This document shows, in pieces, positions 7,022 to 46,844 of a DNA stretch of 54,826 nt. The stretch spans positions 1 to 54,826 of the forward strand of contig NZ_JALHQI010000012.1 of NCBI RefSeq assembly GCF_022842045.1, given 5' to 3'. A program made the position numbers and the translations under genes. Origin of the DNA: Arenimonas sp. (lineage in GTDB: Bacteria; Pseudomonadota; Gammaproteobacteria; Xanthomonadales; Xanthomonadaceae). A model generated the notes under the pieces. That model saw nothing but the letters and a program-made list of their open reading frames with translations, was not told where the DNA came from and made no database searches. Within the stretch, counting starts at the first letter, position 1. Each line of letters begins with the position of its first letter.

Positions 7022-7034
7022 AAAACCCACTTCC

Positions 7035-23393: not shown

Positions 23394-24087
23394 GTCCAGT
23401 AGCCCGTGCGATGGCGGAATCGATAATAGTTCCCACCGAAACTGACGGGCTTTCTGTCATAGCACAGACCAATGCGGGCGCCGGTCGAGTTTGAACTTTG
23501 CGCCGGAATGAGCTGACCAGCGATTCAGGTGTTGATTGAGCCAGCCCACACTGGCGGTGGCGACTGGTATCGCCTAGGGCGGCCGCCTGCCGCTTCCGGC
23601 CAGGAGCAGACATTGCCCGAGCGGATGGTTTAGGGTGTCTACTAAATCGTAGGAACTATCGCCCTCGTAGGAAGAAGCTCGACCGCCAGCAGCAGCACCG
23701 GAAATGTTTCACATTCATTCCGGCCCGCGCAATGGATACCTGGCAGTGGATACCTTGGGGTGGTCGCTGAAGTTGTGTTGGAACCTCGTTACGCGCGCTG
23801 GAACCGGCCTGTAGGGTCCGCGGGAAATGGTCGCTAAACCCGGCAGTCAGACTTCTGGCGGGCCCAAAGGGCCGGAACGAGGGAGACGGGCCGCCCGTTG
23901 GCGACGCCAGGACCCCCAGCCGTAAGCCGGTTGCCGGTTTTTTCCGCCCCCGGTCGACTAGCTAAAGAACGACCCAGCATGGCACTCGATCCTGGCCCGT
24001 CGCCGGCCACGATCGCGTGAGAACGGGAGCGGTTTATCCCGAAAGATGCACGCAAGAGGTCGCAACGTCTGGAGGAGAATTACCCGC
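23394..24087. other. 694-base intergenic region ahead of the defence locus
   Basis: No convincing gene is visible. Two CGTAGGAA copies lie at 23648-23655 and 23666-23673, and TGGATACC occurs twice near 23733-23755. GGAAC boxes are scattered (near 23790, 23810 and 23876) and resemble the -35 element of ECF-type sigma promoters, which would suit the sigma-like gene downstream. A small hairpin with a T-run lies at 23924-23943. The region could hold a regulatory RNA and the promoter of the operon. Confidence 0.4.
23924..23943 (+). terminator. possible rho-independent terminator in the intergenic region
   Basis: AAGCCGG and CCGGTTT pair with one G-T wobble around a TTG loop and are followed by further T residues. 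No gene ends just before it, so if real it would end a non-coding transcript or an attenuated leader of the downstream operon. Confidence 0.4.
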
Positions 24088-24879
24088 ATGAAAGCTGACC
24101 TCGAACCACCCGATGCTGAGGCCGGGCCCTTGCCAAGGACCCGGCGCCCGGAAGTCCAAACCGTCATCGACACGCTGAATGGTCTGGCGCGGCCGCAACT
24201 GCACCAGCGCCTGCGCCAGGCCATCCTGCATCGGGATCTGCCTCCGGAAGCGCTGTTATGCCTGGCGCGCAACGGGCATGCCTGTAAGGACAAGGACACG
24301 TTGTTTCTGGCCTTCGAAGGCCTGACCAAGTGCGCCTTGCCGATGATCCGCAGTCAGATGCGCCGGCTGTATCGCATCTCCGACGCAGACCTTAAGGACC
24401 ATGCGCAGGTGGTATTCGAGAACCTGTTCCTTCGCATCAGCGAGGGCAACAAGGCGCTCGACTATGGGGAGCGCTTCTTCCACTCGTTCATCCTCAAGCG
24501 TTCGCTCGATGCGATGAAGTCGGCGGATCACCCCTGGGAACCGAAGTACCGCAACGCCGTCGCGGCTCTGTCCGATGCGTACGGCAAGGCTGTCCGGCCG
24601 ATTAACGGCGATGGAGAACGCGCGCCGGTGGAAGCGGACGCACGCATCCTCAGCCAGGCCGAAGATCCGGCCGAGCGCGCCGCGGGACAGGAGGAGCTTG
24701 AAGACGTCGGACGGCGTCTGCTGGACGTGCCTGAGAACGCCTGCGAGGCCCACATCCAGTCGCACGTGCTGAAGATGACCCATGCGGAAATCGCAGCCCA
24801 CTTTGATGTTGATGAGCGGACCATCCGCAACTGGCTCCCGCTCGTCAGCAAGGCACTAGGTAAGAGGGATACCCCATGA
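24088..24879 (+). CDS. sigma-70-like (ECF-like) regulatory protein
   Basis: A 263-residue protein. A segment at about residues 80-150 resembles sigma region 2 (ISDADLKDHAQVVFENLFLRI, then FFHSFILKRSLDAM). The C-terminal 55 residues resemble sigma region 4 with an HTH (KMTHAEIAAHFDVDERTIRNWL). GGAGGAG precedes the ATG at 24088; an ATG at 24046 is also open. It overlaps the next gene by 4 bases and heads the locus, so it probably drives or tunes its expression. Similarity to sigma factors is distant. Confidence 0.6.
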   Translation: MKADLEPPDAEAGPLPRTRRPEVQTVIDTLNGLARPQLHQRLRQAILHRDLPPEALLCLARNGHACKDKDTLFLAFEGLTKCALPMIRSQMRRLYRISDADLKDHAQVVFENLFLRISEGNKALDYGERFFHSFILKRSLDAMKSADHPWEPKYRNAVAALSDAYGKAVRPINGDGERAPVEADARILSQAEDPAERAAGQEELEDVGRRLLDVPENACEAHIQSHVLKMTHAEIAAHFDVDERTIRNWLPLVSKALGKRDTP

Positions 24880-25544
24880 ACGGAAAAATGACCCGCGATG
24901 AAGTCCTCGATGCATTCGGGGCGGCGGCGTGGCCCACCGAGGAGTTGCTGCGCGAATGGGTGAAGCGCTACCCGAAGTTCGAGCGCGACCTGGTGGAGTT
25001 CGCCACCTTGTGGGCGGCGACGGCCAATCTGCCGGAAGAGGAGATGGACTCGCAGCTGGAGGACTCCATCGTCAACCGGGTGATGAGCCGCGTGCAGACG
25101 CTGGACCGCGAGCTGGAGGATGACGAGCTGCCGGCGGCTCTGCCGGCCGCGCATGCCTCGGCGGCAGCGGCCCGGGCAGCGCTGTGCGTGTCCGATGCAG
25201 TTTGCCTGCACATTGAAAGCCTCGAGCAGGCGCTGCGTGCACGCGGCGTGTCGGGTGAGTGGGCGCACACCCTGCAGATTGACGATTCAATCTTCGTGCT
25301 GATGGAAGAACACATGATTTCCCCGCCCGTGCCCCGACGCTTGCTCGACACCTTTTCGAAGGTGTTGGGCGTGCAAGTCGAAGCGTTTCGGGCCTGGTTG
25401 TTCCAAGATCCGGCCCCTCAATATGCGTGGTACGCCACCAAGACCCCCACGATCGAGCGGTGGAGCTTTCAAATGGCGGTAGAAAAGTCTTCCTTGCCAG
25501 AGCCGCTGAAAAAGCAGTGGCTGGCCGAGAGCATGGACTCCTGA
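24876..25544 (+). CDS. unknown protein coupled to the sigma-like gene
   Basis: A 222-residue acidic, mostly helical protein that I do not recognise. It starts in a 4-base overlap with the sigma-like gene (ATGA) and ends 6 bases before the helicase gene, so the three are one transcript. It has no membrane segment. The position directly after a sigma-like gene would suit a cytoplasmic anti-sigma or adaptor. A C-terminal stretch with many Trp and Phe residues (AWYATKTPTIERWSFQM) may be an interaction surface. Confidence 0.65.
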   Translation: MNGKMTRDEVLDAFGAAAWPTEELLREWVKRYPKFERDLVEFATLWAATANLPEEEMDSQLEDSIVNRVMSRVQTLDRELEDDELPAALPAAHASAAAARAALCVSDAVCLHIESLEQALRARGVSGEWAHTLQIDDSIFVLMEEHMISPPVPRRLLDTFSKVLGVQVEAFRAWLFQDPAPQYAWYATKTPTIERWSFQMAVEKSSLPEPLKKQWLAESMDS

Positions 25545-25550
25545 TCGCTC

Positions 25551-28500
25551 ATGGACGCTTTTACGTCGGTCCGCCTCAAAGCACAGCGGCAGCGCGAACA
25601 CCTCATCACCAAACACAGCTGCAGCGAGGATGCCCCCTCGCTGCTGGCCGCGGCGATGCGCGACGCCGAGCTTCGCTTGCTGGTGGTCCCGGCCGACTTT
25701 CCGTTGTTGGGAGGAGGGCACGGCGCGTTGCAGCGCGTGCGTCGACGGGTTCTGATATCGGCGGATCTCCAACCGGAAATCCAGTCCTTTGTGCAGGCAC
25801 ACGAATACGCGCACTGGGTGATCGAGTCCCCGGCCGATCCGGTGCTGGTGAGCCAGGTCATCGATCCTGCCACGCCTGAACAAGCGACCCCGCTGGGCAT
25901 GGGCCGAGTCGAAGGCTATAGCGCCCAGGAGCTGCGCGAACGCTACGCCAATGTCTTCGCTCGCGAGTTTTTGTTGCCAACGATGCTGGCGCGCCGGATG
26001 TTTGTGGACCAGAAGTTGTCGGCTACTGATATCGCGGGGATCCTGAAGATCACCGTAGGTCTGGTTTACCAGCAGCTGCAATACGCTTTGCTGGTTCCCG
26101 AACCACCGCCGGCAAAGCCGGACAATCCGTTGCCGGACCTGGACGATTCCCAGCGTTCAGCGGCCCAGCACGAAGGCAGTGCCGCGCTAGTCGAGGCCGG
26201 GCCGGGTACGGGCAAGACGCGAACCCTGATCGGGCGCATTGAGCATCTGCTGGCCAATGGAGCCGATCCTCGATCGATCTTGGCGCTGACCTTTTCGAAC
26301 AAGGCTGCGCGCGAGATCAAAGAGCGCGTGGCTCGCGCAGTCCCCGCAGCCAATGAGTTGTGGGCCGGCACCTTCCATGCATTCGGCCTGGAGTTGCTGC
26401 GCAAACATGCGACGCGCGCGGGGTTGAAAGAGCCGGTGCGTCTGGTGGACCCGGCCGATGCCCTCGAACGCCTGGAGTCGCTGCTACCCGAGCTGGGACT
26501 GAACTACTACCTGCGCTTGAGCGATCCGCTGGTGTTGATTCAAAACGTCTTGGGCGCGATCTCCCGCGCCAAGGACGAGCTGTGCACGCCCGAGCAGTAC
26601 GCCGTGTTGGCCAAAAATATGCACCAGTCCGCGGGAACCGACCCGGCATTGCTGGAGGCGGCTGCGCGGGCCGCGGAGGTGGCCCGGGTTTACGCGCGTT
26701 ACGAGCTCATGCTCCGGCAGTTGGGCGCTGCGGATTTCGGCGACCTCATCTGGGGCGCCATCAAGCTGCTGGAGAACAACGGCGATCTGCTGGCCATGCT
26801 GCGGGCACAGTTTCCTCATGTGCTTGTCGACGAATACCAGGACGTCAATCGCGCCAGTTCGCGCTTGCTCAAGCTGATCGCCGGCGACGGCCAGAAGCTA
26901 TGGGTGGTGGGCGATGTGCGGCAGGCCATCTATCGGTTTCGGGGCGCTTCGCCCGCCAACATGCGGCTGTTTTCGCAGGATTTCCCCGGGGCTTCAATAT
27001 TGGAGTTGAAGTTCAATTACCGGTCCGGTCAGCGCATCGTCGACACCTACACGGATTTCGCGCGCAGCCTGTACGACCCGGTCTGGAACGCGGCACCGCA
27101 CCTGAAGGCGGTGCGCGGCGAGGGTCATCGGCCAAGCCTGATCATCGCTCCCAACCTCGACGCGGAAGTGGCAGCAATCGCGCAGGCCATCGAAGCCCAT
27201 CGCGCCCACGGCATTGCCTACCGCGACCAAGCCATCGTCGTGCGCACGCACACGCATGCCGAGCGCGTGGCGCTGCGCTTGCAAGCGCTGGGTGTCCCTT
27301 CCATGTACTTGGGCGACATCTTCGAACGCGACGAGGTTCGAAACCTCCTGGCCGTCGTCTCCTTCGCGGCCGAACCCAGTCGCGGCGCGCTATTGCGCTT
27401 GGCGCTGACGCAGACCTACCGCCTGCCTTTGGCGCAGGTGCGCGCCTTCCTGGATTTGGCACGCGGCGCCGAGCGATCGCCCCTGGAAGCACTGTCCGAT
27501 CCGGCGGTATTGGCCGACTGTCCCTCGACCGCTCGAGCAACCCTCGAGCGCCTGCGTGACGACCTGGCCGGTTTGTCGTTCAACAGCACCGTGGCCCAAA
27601 CGCTCAATCATGTTCTGTTCGAGCGCCGCGCGCTGATCGACGAAATCCTGGCGGTCCAAGGCGCACTGGGCGACCAGCGACGCCTGGCGATCTTCCAGTT
27701 GATGCAGTTTGCCGCCGAACACTTCGACGCGCGTGGGGGCAATCCCAAGAAGAACTTGCTGCGCTGGATCCGGCGACTGGAACAGTTCGGGGAAGAGAAG
27801 GCGCTGCGCGAGCTTCCCGCCGCGGCCGCTTCCATTGAGGCGGTGCGATTGATGACGGTGCACGCCAGCAAGGGATTGGAATTTCCAGTCGTCTACTTGC
27901 CGTATCTGGCGGCGACCCATTTTCCACAGCCCAAGAATCGCTATCGGAATTGTCCACCGCCCGACGGGATGTTGCGCGCGGAGGACGTGGACGATCAGTT
28001 TGAGGAAGAGAGCCTGTTCTATGTGGGCTTGTCGCGCGCACGCGACCACTTGGTCTTGTCGCATTCGGAAACGCTTTCAGGTCGAAATATCAAGGCCACC
28101 AGCTTCCTCGACACCGTCGCAGGGCACTTGACGCAATCGCGGGCCACCGCGCTCGATCGGGCGTTGGTGGGCGATGAGCTGCCATTGCTTCCGGAACTCA
28201 AGCTCGCCCCGGACATTCATGATGCCAAGGACCTGGACCAGTACGAGCGCTGTCCGCGCAAATACGCCTACGCTCGCAGTTTGGGGCTTCGCGCCGGTGG
28301 AGATGATGATGGCTACGTGCGCTTCCACCGCGCGGTGTCCGCCGTGCTGTCGTGGGCGATCGCCGGGCGCGCCGAACGGGCTGTGCCCTTAGACGAATAC
28401 TGGCCGCGGCTCGAAGCGGTTTGGGCCGAACACAAGTTGAGCGAGCATGCCTTCGCGCCCGTCTACAAAGACTTCGCCGTCCGCATGCTCACCGTCGCGG

Positions 28501-28913
28501 AGGCGCATCTGCGCGCACCCGGGGCGGCCGCACACGATATCGAGCTCCCAGTGGGCGGGATCAAGGTCAAGGTCCGCCTAGACCACGCGGAATCCAGCGA
28601 CGGAGGCGTGGTGCGTCGCTACAAAACCGGACGACGGCCGAAGAAGGTCGACCCCGATCTCACCGATGCCTTGCGCCTGATGGCAGGTCGGCACGTTTAC
28701 GGGCCAAGGGCGCGACTGCAGGTCCATTTCCTCAGCTCCGAAGACGTCGTCGACGTGGAGATTAAGGACAAGGCGCTGGAGAACCGGGTCGCCAAAGTCC
28801 GCGAGATCGCCCAGAACATCGCCACGGGCAAGTTTCCGGTGACCACCAACGTCGACCAATGTCCGCGTTGTCCTTTCTTCTTCTTGTGCCCGGCTGTTCC
28901 CGAGGTGGAGTAG
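25551..28913 (+). CDS. ImmA/IrrE metallopeptidase - UvrD/Rep helicase - PD-(D/E)XK nuclease fusion
   Basis: An 1120-residue multidomain protein. Residues 1-185 form an ImmA/IrrE-like zinc protease with HEYAH at 84-88 and ERYANVFAREFLLP downstream. Residues about 195-840 are a superfamily 1 helicase: EAGPGTGKTRT (Walker A, 217-223), DEYQD near 427, VGDVRQAIYRFRGA, LKFNYRSGQRI, VHASKGLEFPVV near 772 and YVGLSRARDHL near 824. Residues about 890-1115 resemble a Cas4/AddB-type nuclease with CPRKYAY and CPRCPFFFLC (possible Fe-S cysteines). Its DYKTG motif reads RYKTG, so one catalytic acid looks replaced. It precedes the ubiquitin-like genes by 92 bases. Confidence 0.85.
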   Translation: MDAFTSVRLKAQRQREHLITKHSCSEDAPSLLAAAMRDAELRLLVVPADFPLLGGGHGALQRVRRRVLISADLQPEIQSFVQAHEYAHWVIESPADPVLVSQVIDPATPEQATPLGMGRVEGYSAQELRERYANVFAREFLLPTMLARRMFVDQKLSATDIAGILKITVGLVYQQLQYALLVPEPPPAKPDNPLPDLDDSQRSAAQHEGSAALVEAGPGTGKTRTLIGRIEHLLANGADPRSILALTFSNKAAREIKERVARAVPAANELWAGTFHAFGLELLRKHATRAGLKEPVRLVDPADALERLESLLPELGLNYYLRLSDPLVLIQNVLGAISRAKDELCTPEQYAVLAKNMHQSAGTDPALLEAAARAAEVARVYARYELMLRQLGAADFGDLIWGAIKLLENNGDLLAMLRAQFPHVLVDEYQDVNRASSRLLKLIAGDGQKLWVVGDVRQAIYRFRGASPANMRLFSQDFPGASILELKFNYRSGQRIVDTYTDFARSLYDPVWNAAPHLKAVRGEGHRPSLIIAPNLDAEVAAIAQAIEAHRAHGIAYRDQAIVVRTHTHAERVALRLQALGVPSMYLGDIFERDEVRNLLAVVSFAAEPSRGALLRLALTQTYRLPLAQVRAFLDLARGAERSPLEALSDPAVLADCPSTARATLERLRDDLAGLSFNSTVAQTLNHVLFERRALIDEILAVQGALGDQRRLAIFQLMQFAAEHFDARGGNPKKNLLRWIRRLEQFGEEKALRELPAAAASIEAVRLMTVHASKGLEFPVVYLPYLAATHFPQPKNRYRNCPPPDGMLRAEDVDDQFEEESLFYVGLSRARDHLVLSHSETLSGRNIKATSFLDTVAGHLTQSRATALDRALVGDELPLLPELKLAPDIHDAKDLDQYERCPRKYAYARSLGLRAGGDDDGYVRFHRAVSAVLSWAIAGRAERAVPLDEYWPRLEAVWAEHKLSEHAFAPVYKDFAVRMLTVAEAHLRAPGAAAHDIELPVGGIKVKVRLDHAESSDGGVVRRYKTGRRPKKVDPDLTDALRLMAGRHVYGPRARLQVHFLSSEDVVDVEIKDKALENRVAKVREIAQNIATGKFPVTTNVDQCPRCPFFFLCPAVPEVE

Positions 28914-28965
28914 CACAACACGGTTTCCGGTTTTTTCACGAAGCACTCGACTAGTTGTGTAACGG

Positions 28966-28983
28966 CGTTGGAATTGTCCAACG
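28966..28983. promoter_or_regulatory. perfect inverted repeat upstream of the ubiquitin-like gene
   Basis: CGTTGGA-ATTG-TCCAACG is an 18-base perfect palindrome with a 4-base centre. It lies 22 bases upstream of the GTG start of the ubiquitin-like gene, in the 92-base gap after the helicase. It could be an operator for a dimeric regulator, or an RNA hairpin that sets the stoichiometry of helicase and conjugation genes. Which one is unknown. Confidence 0.5.
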
Positions 28984-29005
28984 ACGAAATACAACGAGGT
29001 GTAGC

Positions 29006-29533
29006 GTGAAAAAGTTCAAGATCGTGTTGCAGTGCGAAGGTGCTGCGAAGGTGCTGGTCGGTGACTTCAAGGGCCAGCAGTCGGTGGGTGAGGCCCTGAA
29101 GGCGCTCGGCGCGCCCCACATGGGCGAGGAAGGCTACCTGGTGTTCGCCGAAGGCCGCGACGGGCCGATCGACTTGCACGTCCCAATCCAGACGCTGGCG
29201 GTAGGCAAGGAGGGCGACAAGGGCCAGGAAAAGGGCCAGGGCGAGGTCATCCGCCTGCACGAAGGACGTTGCCAGCGAGTAAGCGTGAGCGTCACCTTCA
29301 ACGGCGTGACGAAGTTGCGCGAGTTCCCGCCGGTGACACGCGTGAGCCACGTCCACCAGTGGGCCACGCACAACGCCTTCGACATGTCGCCGCGCGATGC
29401 GGCCGAGCACGTGCTCGAGCTGGTCGGCGGCGACGAGCGCCCGGATGCCGACACCCAGATCGGCACGCTGACCTCGGGCATGCTGTGCGCGGTGGCCTTC
29501 GACCTGGTGCCCTTCAAGCGCGTGGAGGGTTGA
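29006..29533 (+). CDS. bilA: ubiquitin-like protein of a Bil-type operon (tandem beta-grasp)
   Basis: A 175-residue protein with a GTG start preceded by GAGG. It appears to hold two domains: residues 1 to about 80 (KKFKIVLQCEGAAKVLVGDF) and about 90-175 (RVSVSVTFNGVTKLREFPPV, ending FDLVPFKRVEG). The tandem layout recalls ISG15-like BilA. The chain ends in a single exposed glycine, so it may be ready for activation without trimming. It is followed by E2-, JAB- and E1-like genes, and this context is the main evidence. The known role of the family is attachment to phage virion proteins such as tail fibres. Confidence 0.75.
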   Translation: MKKFKIVLQCEGAAKVLVGDFKGQQSVGEALKALGAPHMGEEGYLVFAEGRDGPIDLHVPIQTLAVGKEGDKGQEKGQGEVIRLHEGRCQRVSVSVTFNGVTKLREFPPVTRVSHVHQWATHNAFDMSPRDAAEHVLELVGGDERPDADTQIGTLTSGMLCAVAFDLVPFKRVEG

Positions 29534-29535
29534 GC

Positions 29536-29991
29536 ATGGCTTCCTTGGACCAGCAGGCCTTCGAGGCCGACGTGGAGTCCGGGGCCTTCCTCAACGGCTC
29601 GCTCACGGGCCGTTGGGAAGTGCAGTCGGTGCAGTGGCCGCACGCCTTCATCTGGGTGCGCGCCGGGAACGGCAATCGACTGCTGCTGCGTTTCGAACTC
29701 ACCAACTACCCGCGCCAGGCGCCCACCGCCGAGCCGTGGGATATCGAAACCAACGCGCCGCTGGCACCGGTGCGCTGGCCGCGCGGGGATGCGCGCGTAA
29801 CGGCCGCCTTCAACCCCAACTGGAACGCGCACGCGCTCTACATCCCCTGCGATCGCGTCGCGATCCAGGGCCACGAGGCCTGGCGCCACCAGCATCCGTC
29901 GATGCTGTGGGATCCGGCCGCCGGCATCCATCGCTACGTGCGCGTGGTGTCCGACCTTCTGGGATCGCCCGACTATGCCTGCGCCCACTGA
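29536..29991 (+). CDS. bilB: E2-like ubiquitin-conjugating protein of a Bil-type operon
   Basis: A 151-residue protein starting 2 bases after the ubiquitin-like gene. It shows an E2-like pattern: a strand LLLRFELTNYPRQAPTAEPW, then NWNAHALYIPCDRVAIQGHE with a single well-placed cysteine (Cys105) as the probable thioester residue, then HPSMLWDPAAGIHRYVRVV. Prokaryotic E2-like families share this IPCDR neighbourhood. It should take the activated ubiquitin-like protein from the E1-like enzyme. A second cysteine lies only at the extreme C-terminus. No E3 gene is visible. Confidence 0.78.
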   Translation: MASLDQQAFEADVESGAFLNGSLTGRWEVQSVQWPHAFIWVRAGNGNRLLLRFELTNYPRQAPTAEPWDIETNAPLAPVRWPRGDARVTAAFNPNWNAHALYIPCDRVAIQGHEAWRHQHPSMLWDPAAGIHRYVRVVSDLLGSPDYACAH

Positions 29992-30463
29992 ACTGCGAAT
30001 CCCGGCGCCGCTGTGGAAGCAGCTGATCGAGCAGCTGCACGCGCGCACAGGCGGCGAGCGCCACGAATCCGGGGCGTTCTTGCTCGGCCACATCACCGAA
30101 CAAGGACGCCAGGTCATGCAGGTGCTGTATTTCGACGACCTGCACCCTGAGGTGCATGCGCGCGGAGTGGTGGAACTACCCGCGGCAGCGTTCCGATCCC
30201 TGTGGGCGATCGTGCGCGAACGCGGCCTGCAGGTGGTGGCGGACGTGCACACTCATCCTTACGGGGCGCGGCAAAGCGAGATCGATCGCAAGAACCCGCT
30301 GATCGCTACGCGCGGTCACATCGCCTTAATCGTACCCAACTTCGCGCGCCCGCCGCTCGAGCGCGAGGCGCTGGGGATCTACATCTACGAAGGCGACCAC
30401 CAGTGGCAGACCCTGTACGGCGGCGGACACCGCTTCCTCGTCTTGGAGAATAAACATGACTGA
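29975..30463 (+). CDS. bilC: JAB/JAMM (MPN+) metallopeptidase of a Bil-type operon
   Basis: A 162-residue protein with a complete JAMM zinc site: Glu31 in HESGAFLLGH, then VHTHPYGARQSEID with His92, His94, Ser101 and Asp104. Such peptidases remove or process ubiquitin-like proteins at their C-terminal glycine. Because the partner already ends in glycine, its main role here may be deconjugation rather than precursor trimming. The gene overlaps the E2-like gene by 17 bases and the E1-like gene by 8. Confidence 0.9.
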   Translation: MPAPTELRIPAPLWKQLIEQLHARTGGERHESGAFLLGHITEQGRQVMQVLYFDDLHPEVHARGVVELPAAAFRSLWAIVRERGLQVVADVHTHPYGARQSEIDRKNPLIATRGHIALIVPNFARPPLEREALGIYIYEGDHQWQTLYGGGHRFLVLENKHD

Positions 30464-31841
30464 GTCGATGGAACACATGGCCGAGCGCATGAGCCGCGTG
30501 CTCAAACTCGCCCTCGACACCGGGGAGGCCGCCAGCGAAGCCGAAGCGTTGGAGATTTTCTCGCGCTATCGTGTGCAGCTGGTGTTCGGTGCGGACTTGG
30601 GCGAGATGGGCCAGGTGGCGCTGCTCACCGCCGTGGCCACGGCCATGCCATGCCTGCTGGGCGGAGTGACGATCATCGGTCCCGACCAGCCGCTGCGGGC
30701 GCGCTGGCGTGGGCACCCCGATACGCCAGCGCCTACGCAGTTGATCGCCGCGCTCGAATCCTTCGGTGCATCCCGCGCCACCCGCATCGATCCGCAGGTG
30801 CCTTGCATCGCCCTCGGTGGGGAGGAGGTGCCGGCGGGGTGGGGCATCCGCGCGACCTTCGATGGCTGGACGGCGGCCGTGCTGCCGCTGGCGGGCGAGC
30901 GGCTGGCTGAGCAGGGCAACTGCGCACCAGCCGCCATCCTCGCCGGCGCGATGGCGGTCGCGGAAATCTTCCAGCACTACCGCGGCACGCAACCGCTGGC
31001 TTGCCACCGCACCATCGGGTGGTCGCTATGGGAGCCGTGGTCGCCGTGGACGAACGCGTCTCGCGGACCGCGCCTGACGTCGCTGCCGCAATCGGCATGG
31101 CTGGTGGGACTGGGCAATTTGGGGCAGGCCTATCTGTGGAATTTCGGATTGCTGCCGTACGGCGACGACGAGCTCGAGCTGGTACTCCAGGACTTTGACT
31201 TCGTGTCCACCGCCAACCGCAGCACGTCGCTGCTCACGCGCGAACGCGATGTCGGACGCCGCAAGACCCGCCTGGCGGCCGCCTGGGCCGAACATCGCGG
31301 CTTTCGCACCGCGCTGATCGAGCGCGCCTTCGCCGCCAACGTCACCGTGAGCGGCGAGGAGCCGGCCGTGGCGCTGATCGGTGTCGACAATCCGGCCGCT
31401 CGACGTCTGGTGGAAAACGTCGGCTTCTCTCGCATCATCGACGCCGGCTTGGGGCGTGGGCCAAGCGATTACCTCGGCATCACCCTGCACACCTTTCCTG
31501 CTTCGCGCCCAGCCGACGAATGTTGGCGCGAATCGACAGCGCCCAGCATCGATCCCGCGCAAGCCACCGCCAGGAAGAAGGCCTACGAGAGCATGGACGC
31601 CAGCCGCAAGGATCGATGCGGCGTACTGCGACTGGCTGGGCGCAGCATCGCCACGCCTTTTACGGGCGCGGCGGCGGGCGCGCTGGCCGTCGGTGAACTG
31701 CTCCGGCTGTGCCACGGAGGCGCACGCGTGGAATACACGGCATGGCACCTGGCGCATCCGGACAATCGCCTAGTGCTCCCGGGCGAACCGTGGTCGGTGA
31801 TTAATCCCGGGCTGGTCATGCCGGCGTTTGAGTCCGCGTAG
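30456..31841 (+). CDS. bilD: E1-like (ThiF-fold) activating enzyme with an inactive plus an active adenylation domain
   Basis: A 461-residue protein. The C-terminal half is an active ThiF/MoeB adenylation domain: VGLGNLGQAYLW (GxGxxG at 218-223), QDFDFVSTANR (Asp248, Asn254, Arg255), Lys270 in VGRRKT, and a probable catalytic cysteine, Cys388, in KDRCGVLRLAG. The N-terminal half contains FGADLGEMGQVALLTAVA, a degenerate glycine loop, and GGVTIIGPDQPL, suggesting a decayed Rossmann domain. This inactive-active pairing in one chain recalls eukaryotic E1 enzymes. It should adenylate the ubiquitin-like protein and pass it to the E2. Confidence 0.85.
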   Translation: MTESMEHMAERMSRVLKLALDTGEAASEAEALEIFSRYRVQLVFGADLGEMGQVALLTAVATAMPCLLGGVTIIGPDQPLRARWRGHPDTPAPTQLIAALESFGASRATRIDPQVPCIALGGEEVPAGWGIRATFDGWTAAVLPLAGERLAEQGNCAPAAILAGAMAVAEIFQHYRGTQPLACHRTIGWSLWEPWSPWTNASRGPRLTSLPQSAWLVGLGNLGQAYLWNFGLLPYGDDELELVLQDFDFVSTANRSTSLLTRERDVGRRKTRLAAAWAEHRGFRTALIERAFAANVTVSGEEPAVALIGVDNPAARRLVENVGFSRIIDAGLGRGPSDYLGITLHTFPASRPADECWRESTAPSIDPAQATARKKAYESMDASRKDRCGVLRLAGRSIATPFTGAAAGALAVGELLRLCHGGARVEYTAWHLAHPDNRLVLPGEPWSVINPGLVMPAFESA

Positions 31842-37319: not shown

Positions 37320-37415
37320 GCACTACTTGCGAGTCAGACTTTGGACCGTCCTGACTCTTCCGATCCTACTCCTCGTTGGCCTTGTGTCAAGGGGCGGCTT
37401 TGGCCGGGGGAAAAC

Positions 37416-39851
37416 GTGCTCAACAAGTTCAGCTTCTCCCAACGGGAGAAAATCCTAGATCACTCGAGAACTCTGGGCGTCGCCGAGCGGGGCATCGAGT
37501 ACATAGCTAACGCTCTGGATGCCCCGTCACGAGAGTCGTCTGGCGGTGGCCTCAGGTCGTTCAGCGTCAACTATGCGTCCGCCGTAGCGGGCGTTGCTTT
37601 CCAAGTCGATTCGGCAACAGTTGAGCTCAAGTACCTGCTTCGAGCGCTGATCGGACGAGACAGCCTCTTGCCTATAAACCAACCGGGCAGGATACATGTG
37701 CGTGGGCTCTCCCCTAATGGGCGACGCACACGCTTCCCGTACACGCCGGACTTCGTAGACATAGAGCTCAAGCGCGTCATCGTAGTTGAATGCAAGACCG
37801 AAAGTCAGCTTATTGAACTCGCCAAAACTCGCCGAAACGACTATGTGCGATGCCGGGAGGGCTACAGGTTTCTGCCTGGTGAAGACTATTTCAACAATCT
37901 AGGCATGGAATTCCGTGTCTTCTGCGACCGAGAAATAAGCCAGGTAGAACTGGCGAACCTGATGCTCGTATGCCCTCAACAAGGCCTACTGCAGAGAGAA
38001 GAAATCGAGACAGACCCGCTTCTCCTGCAGGCAAGGTCACTTGTCGAGAGGAGGCCAAGAACCCTCTCCGCGCTCAGAAAGAAGCTAGGAAGCGAAGTAG
38101 AGCATGTCCTTATCAATGCCCTGGCACACAGGTGTCTGTTCGGAACAATGGGCTCAACAAAGTTCACGGACGCTGATCGGTTCACATTCTATCCATCAGA
38201 AACCAATGCGCGGAACGCTGATAGAAAAGAGCTGTCCCGCATTGCAACAGAGCAGATAAGGCGTCAAGAGAAATGGAGCAACTCCGCAGCAAGCATTACT
38301 GCTGCTGACCATAGGTCAGCAATAAGGCGAATCGCTCGCATCGCAGACATAGAAAGTGGATCTCGTAAACCCAACAGCAATGACCGGCGAATCATCGCGA
38401 CGTACCAGCAAAAAATCCAAGAGGGTCGCGAGCCAGAATTTGCAGCCGCAACCAAGTATGAGCTCTCGGGAAACAGGGGTTGTCGGTTTGAAGATCAAAC
38501 AGAATTACTAGAAACGTTTCACGCCCAGCACATAGCTATACCCAACCCGAAGAGCATTAGGGAGACCTACGGGCTGGTCTCTGCTGAAATCGAAGAAAAG
38601 GGCATGCATCCCGTCTCTTACGAGACATTCCGCAAGTTCGTGAATGCCAAGGATCCTGGCGCAACGGCCCAAAAGCAGAGTGGGTCAAGAGGGCTTCATG
38701 CGCATGCGCCAATTTCAGATATTGAGACGGCAAGGCCGGAAGCGCTCACGGCGGGCCAGGTGGTACACGTGGACTCCTCCCCAGAAGACTGCCGATCGTT
38801 CGCAAAGATCGCAGGTCTCATATCGCTTGAGAGGCCATCCTTCGCAATCGCCGTCTGCGAACGGACCGAGCACATACTGGGCTTTGCTGTCGCATTCGGT
38901 GCGGCCTCGGCCTTTCTTCTTTCCTTGCTACTCAGGGACATCGTCCGCCGATGGGGATTCTATCCGCAGTTTGTGGTCAACGATGGCGGGCCTGAGCATA
39001 GATCAAACATGTGGCGACGGGCACTGGCCTGGAACAGATGTTCAATCATCAACAGACCAACAGGGGCGCCTCGCGCAGGCCAGTGCGTCGAATCAGTTAT
39101 CAGAGCTATCAACTACGGGGTGCCGAGAAAGCTAGCGGGATCAACTAGAAACGACGAAGCAAGGCGGCGCTCGTCAAATCAGTACAAGAGCCGGTCTACC
39201 GCAGTACATGACTTTGAAACAGTGCATGACTTGATCGCGGAGGACTTTCGTTCACTACATGACACATCTCCAAAAGCTTTTGCGCACAACTCTCCACGCG
39301 ACTGGTTTCTGGCGGAGCGCGCCCTGCGACCCGTGGGATTGCCGGCGCAAATATCCGAACCAATGACGCTAATAGAAACGAGCGTACCGATCAATGTGAG
39401 AAAAATGGATATGGACGTAACCAGGGGGCTCAGGGTCGGCCTGAGAAACTATAGTTCGTTGGATCTGATCGACGCGGTTCGCGAACATAAGACTTTCGAT
39501 CAGGTTCGCCTAGATCCTGAGGATCCGTCGACGATCTATGTTCAGTTCAAGAGTGGCTGGGTGACCGCCGATTCCCACGATGCAGATGAGCTGCGGGGCC
39601 TGTCTCCGATTGAACGATTGGTTGAGGGGATGCACGCTCGCCAGCGCTGGGACGAAAACCAAGACGTGCGAACAAAGAACCAGGTAAAGCTGAACACAAA
39701 GATTGACCAACTGGACGCTAGGGCTCGGGCTCTGAGCAAGAGCGAGCGATCGCCGCGAGCAAACGAGACTTCTCGAACGGCATCGGCAGGAAGCGACATC
39801 TTTACGCGACTCGAGTCCGGGACGAGCAAGAGGTTCAAGACCAATGGATAA
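37416..39851 (+). CDS. tnsAB: Tn7-like TnsA-TnsB fusion transposase
   Basis: An 811-residue protein. The N-terminal part (about residues 1-200) is a TnsA-type endonuclease: TPDFVDIELKRVIVVECKTE supplies the PD and ExK residues (about Asp112, Glu125, Lys127). The C-terminal part is a TnsB-type integrase core with HVDSSPED (about Asp452), VVNDGGPEH (about Asp522) and QCVESVIRAINYGVPRKL (about Glu558), a D-D-35-E arrangement. It should cut both strands at the element ends and join them. The GTG at 37416 follows GGGGG; the longer frame starts with TTG. Lower GC than its surroundings indicates transfer. Confidence 0.85.
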   Translation: MLNKFSFSQREKILDHSRTLGVAERGIEYIANALDAPSRESSGGGLRSFSVNYASAVAGVAFQVDSATVELKYLLRALIGRDSLLPINQPGRIHVRGLSPNGRRTRFPYTPDFVDIELKRVIVVECKTESQLIELAKTRRNDYVRCREGYRFLPGEDYFNNLGMEFRVFCDREISQVELANLMLVCPQQGLLQREEIETDPLLLQARSLVERRPRTLSALRKKLGSEVEHVLINALAHRCLFGTMGSTKFTDADRFTFYPSETNARNADRKELSRIATEQIRRQEKWSNSAASITAADHRSAIRRIARIADIESGSRKPNSNDRRIIATYQQKIQEGREPEFAAATKYELSGNRGCRFEDQTELLETFHAQHIAIPNPKSIRETYGLVSAEIEEKGMHPVSYETFRKFVNAKDPGATAQKQSGSRGLHAHAPISDIETARPEALTAGQVVHVDSSPEDCRSFAKIAGLISLERPSFAIAVCERTEHILGFAVAFGAASAFLLSLLLRDIVRRWGFYPQFVVNDGGPEHRSNMWRRALAWNRCSIINRPTGAPRAGQCVESVIRAINYGVPRKLAGSTRNDEARRRSSNQYKSRSTAVHDFETVHDLIAEDFRSLHDTSPKAFAHNSPRDWFLAERALRPVGLPAQISEPMTLIETSVPINVRKMDMDVTRGLRVGLRNYSSLDLIDAVREHKTFDQVRLDPEDPSTIYVQFKSGWVTADSHDADELRGLSPIERLVEGMHARQRWDENQDVRTKNQVKLNTKIDQLDARARALSKSERSPRANETSRTASAGSDIFTRLESGTSKRFKTNG

Positions 39852-41028
39852 GGGTGCGCGCCGACATCATGTACCGACCATAGAACATCCGAAGTACATG
39901 GAAGCCCTCGAACTCTGTTACGCGCATATAAATCGCGCGGAAAAAGGGTCAATGGTTCTGGTGACGGGGATGTCCGGGTCAGGGAAGGGCACTATTGCGG
40001 CGGAAATAGTAAGGCGCCTGACTGAGAAGAATCCGATGCTAAATGACTGGGACATGCCAATCGTTGAGATGATTGCAACAAACTCCGAGAACGCATACTA
40101 CTCTTCCAAAGACACCGTATCCCGGCTTCTGAACGTGCTGAAAGACCCGTTTCACTCTGTCGGCCGAGAGGAAGTCCTTGAGAAGGTTGGAATACGCGCC
40201 TCGCCTGCATCTCATCGGTCGATTACAGAGGGAACAATGAGGCAGCGTGTCACGCGCCTCCTGAAAGGTCGAAATGTTAGGTACCTCATAATCGATGAAG
40301 CCGACATGATGTGCGTGATAAAGAAATCCGGGCGCGATGAGGCGGATCACTTAGAGAGCTGGAGGCTGCTCGCGCTAGATGCAGAAGTTGTAATCGTATT
40401 CTTGGCGACATTCAGGATTCTGAAGCTATGGGATAGAACGTCGCAGTTCACACGCAAAATGCCAACTGTTCATGTGCAAAGGTACGTGATCGAGATAGAT
40501 GAGGATGTAGAAAGTTTTGTCGGACTCATTGAGCAGATGTGCGATTTCTATCGCATAGCGAAAGGCGAGCGCGAGAAGATCATAAAGAACGCGGCAGCAA
40601 TAATGACGGCTACAGGGGGCGTGTTCGGCCAATTAAAAGGTCTTTTTGACCGGGCGGATGAGCGCGCCGAAGCGATGGGTCGTAAGACAATTTCCTTAGC
40701 TGACATTAGCTACGCGTTGCCCCGTCGGAATCAGGTGAAGCGATTGTGGGTTGAGATTAATGCCGGGGAGCGCGCTCTCGAAAGCTCGAACTTTGAGGAG
40801 CTGGCAAGGGAAGCAAAGGCCGCAAGGCTGGCGGCCAGCAAAAAGAAGGTCGGACCGGATCGCGCAGAGACGAGCGACAATGCCGACACCAAGACCGACG
40901 TGTCGAGTGCGACAGAGGCGAGCGAGCAGCCTGGGGATAACGCACGTGGCGATCATGCCCGTCCTTCTAAAGGCAAGGGGCGGCGTCGTGCGAAACCAAA
41001 ACCGAGGCTCCCCGTAAAGAGGGCGTGA
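39844..41028 (+). CDS. tnsC: TnsC-like AAA+ regulator of transposition
   Basis: A 394-residue AAA+ ATPase with Walker A TGMSGSGKGT (residues 41-50) and Walker B YLIIDEADMM (Asp151, Glu152). The C-terminal tail (about 320-394) is basic and low-complexity, ending in Lys/Arg-rich segments that probably contact DNA or the transposase. It overlaps the TnsAB stop by 8 bases. TnsC links target-site proteins (TniQ/TnsD) to the transposase and licenses insertion. Confidence 0.82.
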   Translation: MDKGARRHHVPTIEHPKYMEALELCYAHINRAEKGSMVLVTGMSGSGKGTIAAEIVRRLTEKNPMLNDWDMPIVEMIATNSENAYYSSKDTVSRLLNVLKDPFHSVGREEVLEKVGIRASPASHRSITEGTMRQRVTRLLKGRNVRYLIIDEADMMCVIKKSGRDEADHLESWRLLALDAEVVIVFLATFRILKLWDRTSQFTRKMPTVHVQRYVIEIDEDVESFVGLIEQMCDFYRIAKGEREKIIKNAAAIMTATGGVFGQLKGLFDRADERAEAMGRKTISLADISYALPRRNQVKRLWVEINAGERALESSNFEELAREAKAARLAASKKKVGPDRAETSDNADTKTDVSSATEASEQPGDNARGDHARPSKGKGRRRAKPKPRLPVKRA

Positions 41029-41030
41029 GC

Positions 41031-42362
41031 ATGTCAATACTTGCCCCAATGGACCTGCTAGGTTCAAATTCCTCATGCGTTGAATCACTTGAGCACTATG
41101 GCGCACGCCTCGCCTTCATGCACTGCGTGAAGCCAGCTCGGATCTTTGCCCTGGCTCGGGATGCGGCTAATGCAGTTAGCAACGAGTCCAAGATGCGAAC
41201 CTTCAGCTACCAGGCGATCTGTGGCTATGGACCGGTCGCAACACGGCTCGCTATGGGGCTAGAGAGACTAACGGGAAAGGCTGGGTTGAGCGCAGGGACG
41301 TTGCTTCCTTTTAGCGGCGTACTTACGTCGCGGGTAACTGGAGTGTTCGTTCAGAGTCGTCGTTGGTGCCCAATTTGCTATCTCAAGCCAGCGGAGGAAC
41401 GCTATGACTTGCTCGCATGGCAACTTGCAACAGTGACGCATTGCCCGATTGACGGTGTGCGTTTGGCTGAGAGTTGCAGGGAGTGTCGAGCTACGCAGGT
41501 GGATTTTGAGTCGCTCGATGGCGATCGATACGTCTGTCGAGTCTGCAGCGCTTCCCTTGGATGGGTGCCTGCAGCTGAACGATCGGAAACCACATGGGAG
41601 AGGTGGAGCAATCGGAGTTCGAAGGATCTAATTCAATTCACCTCCAGCAACCCCGAAGGAATCAAAGGAAACCCATGGAGCATCTTCCTGACTGCTCTGC
41701 AGGATAATGGCCGCCTTTCGCCAGACAAAAGCGTTAGAGATTTTCGGGTTCTCGTTTGGAAGAGCAACAAGTCGCGCCCGAGGCTGACGACAGTGTTTCA
41801 GTACGCCGCCCTTCAGTCTGTCCCGCCTCTACAGGTGCTTTTGGACCCGCTAGGTGCATCAAGTGCGACACTCCCGCTCGCAGTTAACGCGATCATGGAC
41901 ACTCAACCAACCGGCAGTTTGGCGTCTCGAAATCACAAGCACCTCCGATATGCTGCGGCTGTTATGGCAGAGACACATCACGGACTTCCATTGCCACCAC
42001 CTGTTTGGATGGCGAGACTGTTCAAGGTGAACCGAAGCAACTGGCGCGAATCAGACCGAGTTGGTTATGGACGCTACGTAAGTGCCCACAAACGAAGCTG
42101 GGTTGGCAGGGCGGTTTCACTCGATCTGTCCCTTTATAGCAGGGCATTGGCCTACGTTCAGCGCGAACTAAATGTCGGAAGTGAAAAGACGGTCGGCGAA
42201 ATCATTAGGGATCTTTCAATGGAGAGCGGAGCCAGTGACCCAGCCCGGGTGAAGCGCGCCGTGCTAAGTACCCTGATCGTTGCGGGGATCTTTCGGCGTC
42301 TCAGGCCGGGAGAGGTATTGGAGGTACAGGCTGGGCGAGTAAATGCCAAAACTAGGCTATGA
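41031..42362 (+). CDS. tniQ: TniQ-family target-selection protein
   Basis: A 443-residue protein with TniQ-like features: HYGARLAFMHCVKPARIF in the N-terminal region, then zinc-ribbon cysteines in RRWCPICYLKP (Cys113, Cys116), THCPIDGVRLAESCRECR (Cys138, Cys149, Cys152) and YVCRVCSASLGW. It is longer than short CRISPR-associated TniQ proteins, and there is no Cascade or CRISPR array here, so it probably recognises DNA itself, as TnsD does. A GTG at 41025 overlapping the TnsC stop is an alternative start. Confidence 0.8.
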   Translation: MSILAPMDLLGSNSSCVESLEHYGARLAFMHCVKPARIFALARDAANAVSNESKMRTFSYQAICGYGPVATRLAMGLERLTGKAGLSAGTLLPFSGVLTSRVTGVFVQSRRWCPICYLKPAEERYDLLAWQLATVTHCPIDGVRLAESCRECRATQVDFESLDGDRYVCRVCSASLGWVPAAERSETTWERWSNRSSKDLIQFTSSNPEGIKGNPWSIFLTALQDNGRLSPDKSVRDFRVLVWKSNKSRPRLTTVFQYAALQSVPPLQVLLDPLGASSATLPLAVNAIMDTQPTGSLASRNHKHLRYAAAVMAETHHGLPLPPPVWMARLFKVNRSNWRESDRVGYGRYVSAHKRSWVGRAVSLDLSLYSRALAYVQRELNVGSEKTVGEIIRDLSMESGASDPARVKRAVLSTLIVAGIFRRLRPGEVLEVQAGRVNAKTRL

Positions 42363-43273
42363 AAAGGATTCTTGATCCAAGCCCCCAGAAGGCGCTGGGT
42401 GATCTCATAAAGGAGCTAACGGGCGAGAAGCGTGTCCGCATTCAGGATTGGAGAAGACTCCAAACGAAGGTGGTCCTTTCATTCGCCCAGAGCCAGGCAT
42501 CCATGTCACTGCCTGATCTGGCGGCTGCCAGCATCTATGGCTCCAGGACGAAGTCCGGGCTGCATGAAAAATGGGCGGGAGGCCAAGCGACTGTATCCCC
42601 GGGATCAGCGAAGAGACTTGACCGTGTGGCGCCAGGCTCGCTCGAATGCTTTGAGCTGCCCCTGTTTCCTTTGCTAGCTCAGGAACCCATCAGTGAGCCT
42701 GAAATCCACGAGCGCCTCGAGCCGTATCGGCGTCAAGATTCTTCGATAAGGGCGTTTCTGCCTTGGAGGTTTCCTGACGAGGTCGAGAGGCTTAAGAGGC
42801 GCGACTACATCCCCGTGATGTCGGTGACCGACACGAGCAACCTATTCCTTTACGGAACACCGCACTCGTTCTCAGTTTTGCTTGGCCTCGCCAGGCTGGC
42901 CGAATCGAAGGGTGACCTAATGTTGCATGTTGCGGCATTCAGAGATATCTATCGAGCCCTTCCCTTCTTGCTTCGACGGCAAGGATTTAGAGAGCATCGC
43001 GACGAGCTGATTGAACAGCTGGATAGAGTTCGTAGCCGTGTGCCCTTGTCCGCTTCCTTGTTCGACGTCGACTGGGATGTTGTCTCACGCCAGGAGACAG
43101 ATACCACCATCGAGCTATGCCGTTGGAAGCGTCCGAGATGCCCAGCAACGGGCAGGTTCGTCGATCTTGAAGAACCCATCCTAGAGGCTGAGATTATCCC
43201 GGGGCAAGAAGTGAAACGGAGACGGGACGCCTCGGCAAAGCGACGCACTCAGCGCAGAAAAGCAAGCAGCTAA
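42359..43273 (+). CDS. fourth protein of the Tn7-like module, unknown family
   Basis: A 304-residue protein that I cannot assign. It overlaps the TniQ stop by 4 bases and so belongs to the transposition operon. The N-terminal 110 residues are basic (LIKELTGEKRVRIQDWRRLQ), and the last 25 are almost entirely charged (VKRRRDASAKRRTQRRKASS), suggesting DNA contact. There are no zinc-ribbon cysteines, ATPase or nuclease motifs. It occupies the place of TnsE or of a second target-selection protein in Tn7, but I see no real similarity to TnsE. Confidence 0.7.
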   Translation: MKRILDPSPQKALGDLIKELTGEKRVRIQDWRRLQTKVVLSFAQSQASMSLPDLAAASIYGSRTKSGLHEKWAGGQATVSPGSAKRLDRVAPGSLECFELPLFPLLAQEPISEPEIHERLEPYRRQDSSIRAFLPWRFPDEVERLKRRDYIPVMSVTDTSNLFLYGTPHSFSVLLGLARLAESKGDLMLHVAAFRDIYRALPFLLRRQGFREHRDELIEQLDRVRSRVPLSASLFDVDWDVVSRQETDTTIELCRWKRPRCPATGRFVDLEEPILEAEIIPGQEVKRRRDASAKRRTQRRKASS

Positions 43274-46400: not shown

Positions 46401-46844
46401 CGCGGGCGTCCCGGAGATCTTTGGCAACAGATCGGGGGAGAAGGAAAGGCTCGGCGCAGGACGGACCTGGCGGCCGTACCGGCGGGCCATCCAGAAGCAG
46501 AAGTGGAACAGCTCGCGTGACGCTGTTAGGGCGTCACTTTCGGCAACACGCTTGTGGCTGTGGACGGCCAGATTCCCAAGGTCCTTGATCAGCCTGGCTT
46601 TCGCGAACAGGGCCTCTCCAACCTGCTTGCGAAAGGTTGGCTCGTAGATGAGCGCGCTCAGCGTATCCTGATAGGGAGGTTGAAAGGCCTTGTCATGCGC
46701 GTACAGCCACGCTACGGCAATCTCGAGCCCGCGGCGGGCATAGAAGCACGAGGCCCTCGGATCGGCATGGGCGGCCTGCTCGCATCGAACGGCCGCCTCG
46801 TGAACGAGCGCCCATTCCGCCTGCAGGAAACTGAAGTTGCTCAT
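43443..46844 (-). CDS. hsdR: type I restriction enzyme, HsdR subunit
   Basis: An 1133-residue protein. The N-terminal region resembles DUF4145 (ARRGLEIAVAWLYAHDKAF), then come a coiled coil and a nuclease domain with KGFVDYVLWGDD and LMLVEAKRTTR (D...ExK). The SF2 translocase follows: MATGSGKTRT, VIDEAHRSIYQKY (DEAH), LVGLTATPK, VDMLDTGIDVPEVV and WQMVGRGTRL. The ATG at 46844 is chosen because AAGGGAAGGG precedes it and the protein then begins sensibly; the frame is open further upstream. It is the last gene of the leftward operon, 169 bases before DUF262. Confidence 0.92.
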   Translation of the reverse strand: MSNFSFLQAEWALVHEAAVRCEQAAHADPRASCFYARRGLEIAVAWLYAHDKAFQPPYQDTLSALIYEPTFRKQVGEALFAKARLIKDLGNLAVHSHKRVAESDALTASRELFHFCFWMARRYGRQVRPAPSLSFSPDLLPKISGTPALSQAEIEKLSAALAERDEALEGLKTSHEKLNAELEELREEVAAAKKANAAEPDTHDYSEAETRKAYIDLLLREAGWSLDPAKNFEIEVAGMPNNEAKGFVDYVLWGDDGKPLMLVEAKRTTRSPKVGQQQAKLYADCLEKAYGQRPVIFYSNGYEHWMWDDVDAPPRRVQGFYKKDELELLIQRRTSRKRVADVPINASIIERYYQIRAVRRVGETFEVDHQRKSLLVMATGSGKTRTVIALIDVLMRANWAKRVLFLADRVALVNQAVNAFKTHLPDAAPVNLVTEKNTDGRVFVSTYPTMMGLIDEAPDGQRRFGVGHFDLIVIDEAHRSIYQKYRAIFEYFDSMLVGLTATPKDEIDKNTYGLFDLETGVPTDAYTLEQAIADGHLVKPIPIAVPTKFQREGIRYADLSDEEKEQWESLDWSDDGTIPDEIDPAELNQWLFNVDTVDKVLEVLMTKGHRVAGGDRLGKTIVFAKNNDHADFIAERFNANYPEYKGHFARVITYKTEYAQSLIDDFSKKEKAPHLAISVDMLDTGIDVPEVVNLVFFKVVRSKTKFWQMVGRGTRLCQDLYGPGQHKKDFVILDFCGNLEFFSQNPNFSDVATTEALSTRLFKARVQMLLELDALRGKGTPVEQAQSPVYGDSLTDAQLRADIAQGLHAYVAAMNPDNFVVRPQRRYVETFSTPEAWSHLGPDSVEALFGRVAGLPSAAVDQDEEAKRFDLLILRAQLSILQAGKDFGPLMERIRRIAAELEGQMAIPAVKAEAALIQEVASEEWWEYVTVPMLELVRRRLRALIKLIPKGRKVVVYSNFEDEVGEAVAVDLPQVAGLDMAKFKEKARAFLRVNETHISLQRLRRNQPLTTQDINELEKMLVAAGGTPALISEAKAQAKGIGLFVRSLVGLDREAVVEAFSQFVAESQATPSQIEFVELVVQELTRNGVMEAERLFQSPFTDVNAQGPLAIFPQGRMAQLVDVLELIRGRAVA

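Follow-up and report, generated by a model that had tools for sequence, protein, structure and literature searches.

Which genes decide when a Bil operon is switched on? This question is raised by a locus of an Arenimonas sp. genome, in which bilABCD, the four genes of a system that conjugates a ubiquitin-like protein, are preceded by three further genes, encoding a sigma-factor-like protein, a helical protein (gene 2) and a protease of the ImmA/IrrE type (M78) fused to a UvrD helicase and a PD-(D/E)XK nuclease-like domain. The window, i.e. the whole stretch of 54,826 nucleotides (nt) that was analysed, is contig 12 of a 3.08-Mb assembly of 126 contigs, and a check of its open reading frames recovered all seven genes on the + strand (Table 1). 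We propose that the three upstream genes, here referred to as the module, form a dedicated, autoregulated sigma switch for Bil, which is freed when the helicase-coupled protease meets DNA. We regard this reading as probable, with the parts that follow differing in strength.

Recurrence of the module before ubiquitin-like operons

The assignment of the last four genes to Bil, made in the preliminary description of this DNA from their order, is borne out by the PADLOC profiles, which match BilA, BilB, BilC and BilD in this very order; Pfam adds DUF7665 and Prok-JAB, and the ThiF match of BilD (25.9 bits) stays below the cut-off of 28.1 (E-values in Table 1). Scored by counts in alignment columns, the cysteine of BilB is present in 60 of 71 relatives and in the window, the JAMM residues E, H, H, S and D of BilC are kept in 72 of 72, and BilD has the GxGxxG glycines in 71 of 71 as well as one conserved cysteine in all 70 rows with a letter there, which we take to be the E1 cysteine. 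The window carries the E2 cysteine, the JAMM site, the E1 nucleotide loop and the conserved E1 cysteine, and its BilA ends in glycine. For the Bil system of Collimonas, the available portions of the source report conjugation of the ubiquitin-like protein to virion proteins and phage protection (PMC11364771), and by homology the window locus would be expected to act against phages as well.

A scan for the fusion in a class sample of 274 genomes at 1e-60 gave two matches, namely our own genome and a helicase-only match with 34% identity, and therefore whole collections were scanned. Relatives were sampled with one genome per species, using eight fusions aligned over their first 300 residues, and out of at least 535 relatives the best 80 were analysed together with their flanks. 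These 80 loci were chosen by the N-terminus of the fusion only; near kin of Bil-type fusions are over-represented among them, and some are near copies. First-round profiles, built from eight other loci, detect gene 2 in 80/80 and the sigma-like gene in 75/80, and second-round profiles, partly made from loci that were later classified with them, detect gene 2 in 80/80 and the sigma-like gene in 76/80. Restricted to the 77 loci having more than 1.6 kb of upstream DNA, the sigma-like gene is found in 75. Seven of the 80 loci end too early downstream for classification; the fusion is followed by bilABCD in 52 of the 73 testable loci (50 complete and 2 cut by contig ends), by a multi-ubiquitin operon in 13 and by neither in 8. 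Of the 398 genomes in a phylum sample, 4 contain BilD, our own included, compared to a complete bilABCD after the fusion in 50 of 73 testable loci. The linkage of fusion and Bil, which the preliminary description had left to be looked for in other genomes, is thus recurrent and far above chance.

The multi-ubiquitin group is mixed: in the part of its 13 loci from which architectures were read, we found ThiF together with DUF6527, a JAB-ThiF fusion (L067, L074), and JAB next to a Prok-E2_C-ThiF protein (L033). On plasmids, where the fusion is matched in 90 records (40 of them listed) and BilD in 36, the order sigma-like gene, gene 2, fusion and bilABCD is found in Rhizobium, Aminobacter, Xanthomonas, Variovorax and on two Bradyrhizobium plasmids, the module is followed by a multi-ubiquitin, ThiF and DUF6527 operon on plasmids of Acinetobacter, Klebsiella and Mesorhizobium, and in Pseudomonas koreensis insertion-sequence genes come after it. 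A tblastn search of the plasmids with gene 2 gave no match, and profiles were required.

Within the best 80, loci combining module and Bil belong to Pseudomonadota, Chloroflexota, Acidobacteriota and Nitrospirota, and the multi-ubiquitin loci to Pseudomonadota. In a quickly built tree of 87 fusion sequences with long branches, the closest relatives of the window fusion are those of Lysobacteraceae and Rhodanobacteraceae, the main clade of multi-ubiquitin loci contains one Bil locus (L099), and two multi-ubiquitin loci outside it (L068, L076) form a pair next to another Bil locus (L005). From the positions of L099 and of this pair we conclude that the partners of the module were exchanged. The three genes had earlier been read as one locus with the Bil genes; the recurrent linkage agrees with this, but the module also precedes other ubiquitin-like operons and is therefore to be seen as an exchangeable controller, not as a Bil-only extension. 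A phage origin of the module was considered and rejected, with only one of 19 viral-contig matches covering the protease part, at a contig end.

A promoter-like site in front of both the sigma-like gene and the target operon

Fusion and first ubiquitin-like gene are separated by a median of 106 nt (69 loci; the bounding start codons were chosen by a simple score) and by 92 nt in the window. This gap contains a bipartite promoter-like site, in which TTTCCGGT is followed, after a spacer of 14-16 nt (mostly 15), by CGAYTA or CGATCA, and which Bil and multi-ubiquitin loci have in common. Scored leave-one-out against shuffles preserving base composition only, 39 of 50 non-redundant gaps exceed all 100 shuffles and 44 exceed the 95th percentile. 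With the same matrix, a site above 12 is also present before the sigma-like gene in 31 of the 50 loci and in the window, against a background of one site per 9,760 positions on both strands of the loci, a count which includes the sites before sigma-like genes. Such a site in front of both its own gene and a target operon is as for an extracytoplasmic function (ECF) sigma factor. The strict form TTNCCGGTT-N14..16-CGACTA occurs exactly twice in the 3.08-Mb genome, at 23931 and 28924 of the window, and the backward control of this motif has no match in the genome. All seven genes had been described as tightly packed; they are all present, but the packing is uneven, and since a promoter-like site lies in the gap upstream of bilA, the locus is probably made up of two transcription units.

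The site goes with the module. Scores between -0.9 and 9.3, below the cut-off of 12, are found for nine Bil loci in which the controller is a different one or was not recognised (L093, L094, L095, L097, L098, L103, L104, L105, L108), and seven of these carry helix-turn-helix (HTH) and ImmA-type domains resembling CapH/CapP. A score of 21.5 is reached in L092, which has the sigma-like gene and gene 2 without the fusion, and nine of ten further module loci pass the cut-off (the Bil loci L096, L101 and L109-L111 were left out of this scoring). Comparing the paired sites within each of the 45 loci where both exceed 12, near copies included, gives 13.67 identical positions of 15, as opposed to 11.53 with shuffled partners (12.29 being the highest value in 2000 shuffles); shared ancestry contributes to this resemblance. 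Induction of the conjugation genes through the sigma-like protein, as suggested earlier, is supported by a site which is common to the sigma-like gene and the Bil operon and missing in the nine module-less Bil loci. At the level of sequence, sigma control of Bil can be called well supported, with the sigma-like protein as the factor that would bind the site.

Bil operons are found behind other genes as well. Searches seeded with BilD gave hits in 4 of 398, 7 of 385 and again 7 of 385 genomes, the last sample being nearly identical; these samples overlap and comprise nine distinct genomes, our own included. Three of the nine carry the module (our own, G961 and G991), three (G361, G669, G719) have HTH and M78 domains at its position before Bil, G501 has a HATPase_c protein upstream and an M78 protein downstream of Bil, G519 has no recognised controller, and G949 contains a BilD fragment only. 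The 15 plasmid BilD records that were opened, out of 36, comprise six with the module, five with HTH and M78 (the HTH gene being known from the record's own annotation in three of them), one each of the L092 and L102 types and two degenerate ones (L096, L101). Among the matches listed, the fusion lies at matching coordinates in seven of the remaining 21 records (CP106739, CP140912, CP049042, CP025015, CP013566, CP013555 and CP022549). In L092, a Cupriavidus plasmid, an opposite-strand gene replaces the fusion behind the sigma-like gene and gene 2, with the promoter-like site before Bil, and in L102, a Sinorhizobium medicae plasmid, recombinase/transposase-like frames (judged by eye) occupy the module position before Bil. 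HTH and M78 domains stand at the controller position in L104, L108, L111, L093-L095, L097 and L098, in one open frame in L097, L098, L104 and L111, and L105 encodes a HATPase_c protein upstream of the Bil operon (6870-7853; 2.9e-5, below cut-off), which is possibly CapK-like. As HTH and M78 or other genes take the same place, we conclude that the module is one of several alternative Bil controllers, the M78 protease being common to it and to the commonest alternative seen.

The leader, which runs from the -10-like block to the start codon, was folded for 39 of the 50 non-redundant loci (the window and 38 others; 11 with a weak or no site were dropped). These leaders fold better than dinucleotide shuffles (mean z -1.92; below -2 in 17 of 39), and the structured bilA leader may add translational control. 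We do not claim a proven covarying structure, since RNAalifold, run on 15 leaders aligned with MAFFT, found 0 consensus pairs. Judged by eye, an outer stem, the sequence of which is specific to the clade, masks part of the ribosome-binding site in several clades.

A few module loci have a different surrounding. In L070 (fusion end at 13573), the module and a promoter-like site (15.0, 37 nt past the fusion) are followed by a predicted PolB-like 3'-5' exonuclease gene and by no ubiquitin-like operon. Two Acidobacteriota loci, L052 and L056, have sites of 18.6 at +350 and 19.1 at +15 and no recognised ubiquitin-like operon; short unknown frames follow the module there and could possibly be other cargo. 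In Brucella cytisi (L089), the fusion gene of the module is broken into several frames.

The proteins of the module and how the switch could work

The profile of 72 sigma-like relatives matches the sigma-H/AlgU chain 6in7 (1.3e-11, profile positions 61-252) as well as SigE and others, and the similarity of the family profile to ECF sigma factors spans regions 2 and 4. Sigma70_r4_2 is detected in 59 of the 72 members at E up to 0.05. In a Foldseek search with the AlphaFold2 (AF2) model of the window protein (predicted local distance difference test, pLDDT, 84.7; predicted template modelling score, pTM, 0.60), sigma factors are top-ranked, with E of 0.0055 or worse.

That the third gene encodes an ImmA/IrrE-UvrD-nuclease fusion, as described before, holds for all three domains by Pfam (UvrD-helicase 3.7e-68, UvrD_C 3.1e-33, PDDEXK_1 1.8e-14, Peptidase_M78 9.8e-7); the nuclease, however, lacks the usual second half of its motif in most relatives. 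The protease HExxH, the Walker A lysine and the D-E-x-Q-D motif are each present in 87 of 87 relatives, and the protease part matches IrrE, PprI and CapP weakly in sequence (0.036-0.052). Four C-terminal cysteines are invariant in the rows that have letters (85/85, then three times 82/82); in AddB-type domains, four conserved cysteines have an iron-sulfur role. The catalytic motif of PD-(D/E)XK nucleases contains D/E-x-K (D-x-K), where the fusions mostly have R-x-R: position 1023 is R in 60 of 82 rows, and position 1025 is R in 67 and K in 9 of 82, the correspondence being assigned by eye on the rows counted. Nuclease activity is therefore doubtful, and the C-terminal domain may serve to read DNA or to hold it, without cutting.

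For gene 2, the AF2 model is helical (pLDDT 84.0, pTM 0.54), and its best Foldseek neighbours are HTH proteins of the XRE type, namely SinR (0.53), CapH (1.0) and DdrO (2.0 and 4.4). The family profile matches 3kxa (0.0018), presumably XRE-like too, and the XRE protein 2ofy (0.35), and Pfam HTH families appear in 1-3 of 75 members each. Towards the C-terminus, gene 2 has a conserved KP...F..A stretch, which is perhaps close to a cleavage site. Phosphatase and sulfur transferase were rejected as identities, the matches being weak and below cut-offs and the one from Pfam not recurring in the 75 members. According to the available portions of two papers, CapP and PprI are proteases activated by single-stranded DNA (ssDNA) which cleave CapH and DdrO (PMC10904395, PMC13373217). 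Gene 2 is therefore a natural candidate, and by this analogy the putative substrate of the fusion protease.

Taken together, the switch could work as follows. The ECF-type sigma-like protein would recognise one and the same bipartite promoter in front of bilA and of its own operon, and in the uninfected cell gene 2 would restrain this factor or its promoter. Upon infection or DNA breaks, the UvrD motor of the fusion would load on broken or invading DNA, and the ImmA/IrrE protease would then cleave gene 2 and release the sigma factor, which would transcribe its own operon in a positive feedback as well as bilABCD, so that BilA could be conjugated to virion parts. We infer the proteolytic gating and the response to phage, with the protease-helicase as the likely sensor, DNA as its presumed trigger and the motor as the part that would supply DNA sensing.

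Several observations weigh against this reading. The sigma-like family is divergent, with 26% mean column identity, and the window protein alone falls below the Pfam and NCBIfam cut-offs, while gene 2 has no XRE match at a Foldseek E of 0.001 or less and no Pfam match in the window at 0.05. L055 and L082 have the fusion and gene 2 and enough upstream DNA, yet no recognised sigma-like gene. Six of the 50 gaps (L025, L071, L074, L077, L083, L084) lack a site above the 95th percentile of the shuffles, and 19 of the 50 loci have no site above 12 before the sigma-like gene. Among the loci scored in addition, the site of L107 reaches only 11.1 with the module present, that of L106 falls within the fusion gene, and L102, in which the module is displaced, still has a site of 12.5, though within the BilA frame. 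Furthermore, the module precedes ubiquitin-like systems almost only, as judged from the best 80, unlike CapK/CapS, which stands before many systems; this near-exclusive cargo could reflect a more direct tie.

Alternatively, the fusion could be a defence effector, the helicase of which attacks phage DNA or remodels it, much like GajB together with GajA; it would be expressed along with Bil under a single sigma factor, and the ImmA domain would guard against self-activation. PADLOC GajB profiles indeed match the fusion helicase (best 6e-67), the motor motifs are invariant, the gene lies in the sigma-like operon, and His926 (72/84) and Asp1011 (54/82) are often retained in the nuclease part, so that activity is conceivable. 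However, the R-x-R in the second half of the nuclease motif, the lack of a separate nuclease partner in the module, the replacement of the fusion by HTH and M78 proteins in other Bil loci, and L092, which lacks the fusion but retains the sigma-like gene, gene 2 and the promoter-like site, speak against an effector, which we consider unlikely. Somewhat less likely still is a role of the fusion in conjugation itself, either bringing the ubiquitin-like machinery to DNA-bound phage proteins or being its target or deconjugase, with sigma control being incidental. In favour of such a role, ubiquitin-like operons of various architectures follow the module in 65 of the 73 testable loci, a closer tie than would be expected of a generic controller. 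Since the 80 loci sampled are the best among at least 535 relatives, however, other cargoes are under-sampled; in addition, the promoter-like site of L070 precedes the exonuclease gene instead, and fusion-less Bil operons are common in the BilD-seeded sets. That the genes are chance neighbours within a defence island, as type I restriction and TniB/TniQ-like genes farther downstream in the window might suggest, is hardly credible with an order kept across loci of Pseudomonadota, Chloroflexota, Acidobacteriota and Nitrospirota and a promoter-like site common to them.

Layout of the window and comparison with known systems

Table 1 Features of the module and the Bil operon in the window (positions in the 54,826-nt stretch; PWM, position weight matrix; MFE, minimum free energy; aa, amino acids).
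Feature	Position	Strand	Remarks
Promoter-like site upstream of the sigma-like gene	23931..23961	+	TTGCCGGTT-N15-CGACTAG; PWM score 17.5
ECF-sigma-like protein, 263 aa	24088..24879	+	alternative earlier ATG possible at 24046
Gene 2, 222 aa, helical	24876..25544	+	overlaps the sigma-like gene by 4 nt; candidate protease substrate or anti-sigma
ImmA/IrrE (M78) protease - UvrD helicase - PD-(D/E)XK-like fusion, 1120 aa	25551..28913	+	domains by Pfam
Promoter-like site upstream of bilA	28924..28954	+	TTTCCGGTT-N15-CGACTAG; score 22.6 leave-one-out, 22.9 in full matrix scan
Structured leader (suggestive), -10-like block to bilA	28952..29005	+	MFE -19.0, z -3.02
BilA, ubiquitin-like, C-terminal Gly, GTG start	29006..29533	+	PADLOC BilA 3.1e-46
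BilB, E2-like (DUF7665)	29536..29991	+	PADLOC BilB 1.3e-55; Pfam PF24702 4.3e-54
BilC, JAB/JAMM peptidase	29975..30463	+	PADLOC BilC 5.4e-60; Prok-JAB 7.9e-8
BilD, E1-like	30456..31841	+	PADLOC BilD 1.1e-157; ThiF 6.4e-6

Farther downstream, a run of four + strand genes (37341-43273) contains a TniB-like and a TniQ-like gene flanked by genes for 836 aa and 304 aa without Pfam match of note, and is perhaps a Tn7-like element. It is followed by type I restriction genes (43443-51032), the R and S genes of which enclose a GmrSD_N gene. The window gave no matches in Rfam and tRNA scans.

Whether the module represents a new class of immune-operon controller appears to us evenly balanced. In such a class, a dedicated sigma factor would be held by a partner and released by a motor-bearing protease, with DNA translocation as the infection signal, and the module would serve as an exchangeable front end for at least four ubiquitin-like conjugation architectures. 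Of these, the one with Bil is spread over four or more phyla, and the rest were seen here in Pseudomonadota alone; the promoter code would be conserved and co-evolve with the module. If true, this would account for the way in which many Bil-type and multi-ubiquitin systems are switched on, a point on which the four-gene core gives no answer. The promoter signature could help to find such operons, including those with unknown cargo, and the reading suggests that tests of the four-gene core under foreign promoters hide the sensing step.

Among known systems, the last four genes of the window are like BilABCD in order, profiles and catalytic residues. The Bil core, as given by PADLOC and by the available portions of a review (PMC11354881), is without the sigma-like, gene 2 and protease-helicase parts found here, and in these portions the terms 'uvrd', 'helicase' and 'sigma' have 0 occurrences. 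The multi-ubiquitin operons which the module precedes on the Acinetobacter, Klebsiella and Mesorhizobium plasmids are probably the 6e polyUbl operons of a 2006 survey in Genome Biology (PMC1779556), in whose available text UvrD, helicase and sigma factor do not occur. We did not find the three-gene module described in the open-licence literature searched; a prior mention in primary Bil papers or their supplements is possible.

The fusion resembles GajB and AddAB-type helicase-nucleases in its superfamily 1 UvrD-type helicase, its PD-(D/E)XK-like C-terminal domain and its four conserved cysteines, but it differs from them by a mostly altered nuclease motif, an added protease domain and the lack of a GajA or AddA partner. 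With PprI/IrrE-DdrO of Deinococcus (PMC10904395, available portions), it has in common an M78 protease with HExxH, and the partner here is weakly XRE-like. PprI requires a GAF-like domain for ssDNA sensing according to the same portions; this domain is not seen in the fusion by Pfam, a helicase being present instead, and a sigma factor is added here.

Closest in setting are the controllers CapH+CapP, CapW and CapK+CapS, which precede Bub, Bil, cyclic-oligonucleotide-based antiphage signalling system (CBASS) and other operons (PMC13373217). In the available portions of that paper, 'helicase' and 'imma' do not occur and 'uvrd' occurs three times, the passages shown dealing with E. coli repair mutants. 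Like CapH+CapP as described there, the module places an ImmA/IrrE-type HExxH protease beside a partner, here weakly XRE-like, upstream of an immune operon, and HTH and M78 proteins occupy the same place before other Bil operons. CapH+CapP is, however, a two-gene repressor system without a sigma factor, whereas here a protease-UvrD fusion is combined with an ECF-like sigma factor that has its own promoter-like site. If our reading is correct, activation by a sigma factor, gated by a helicase-joined protease, would stand beside the repressors and the protease-repressor and kinase-repressor pairs of that paper.

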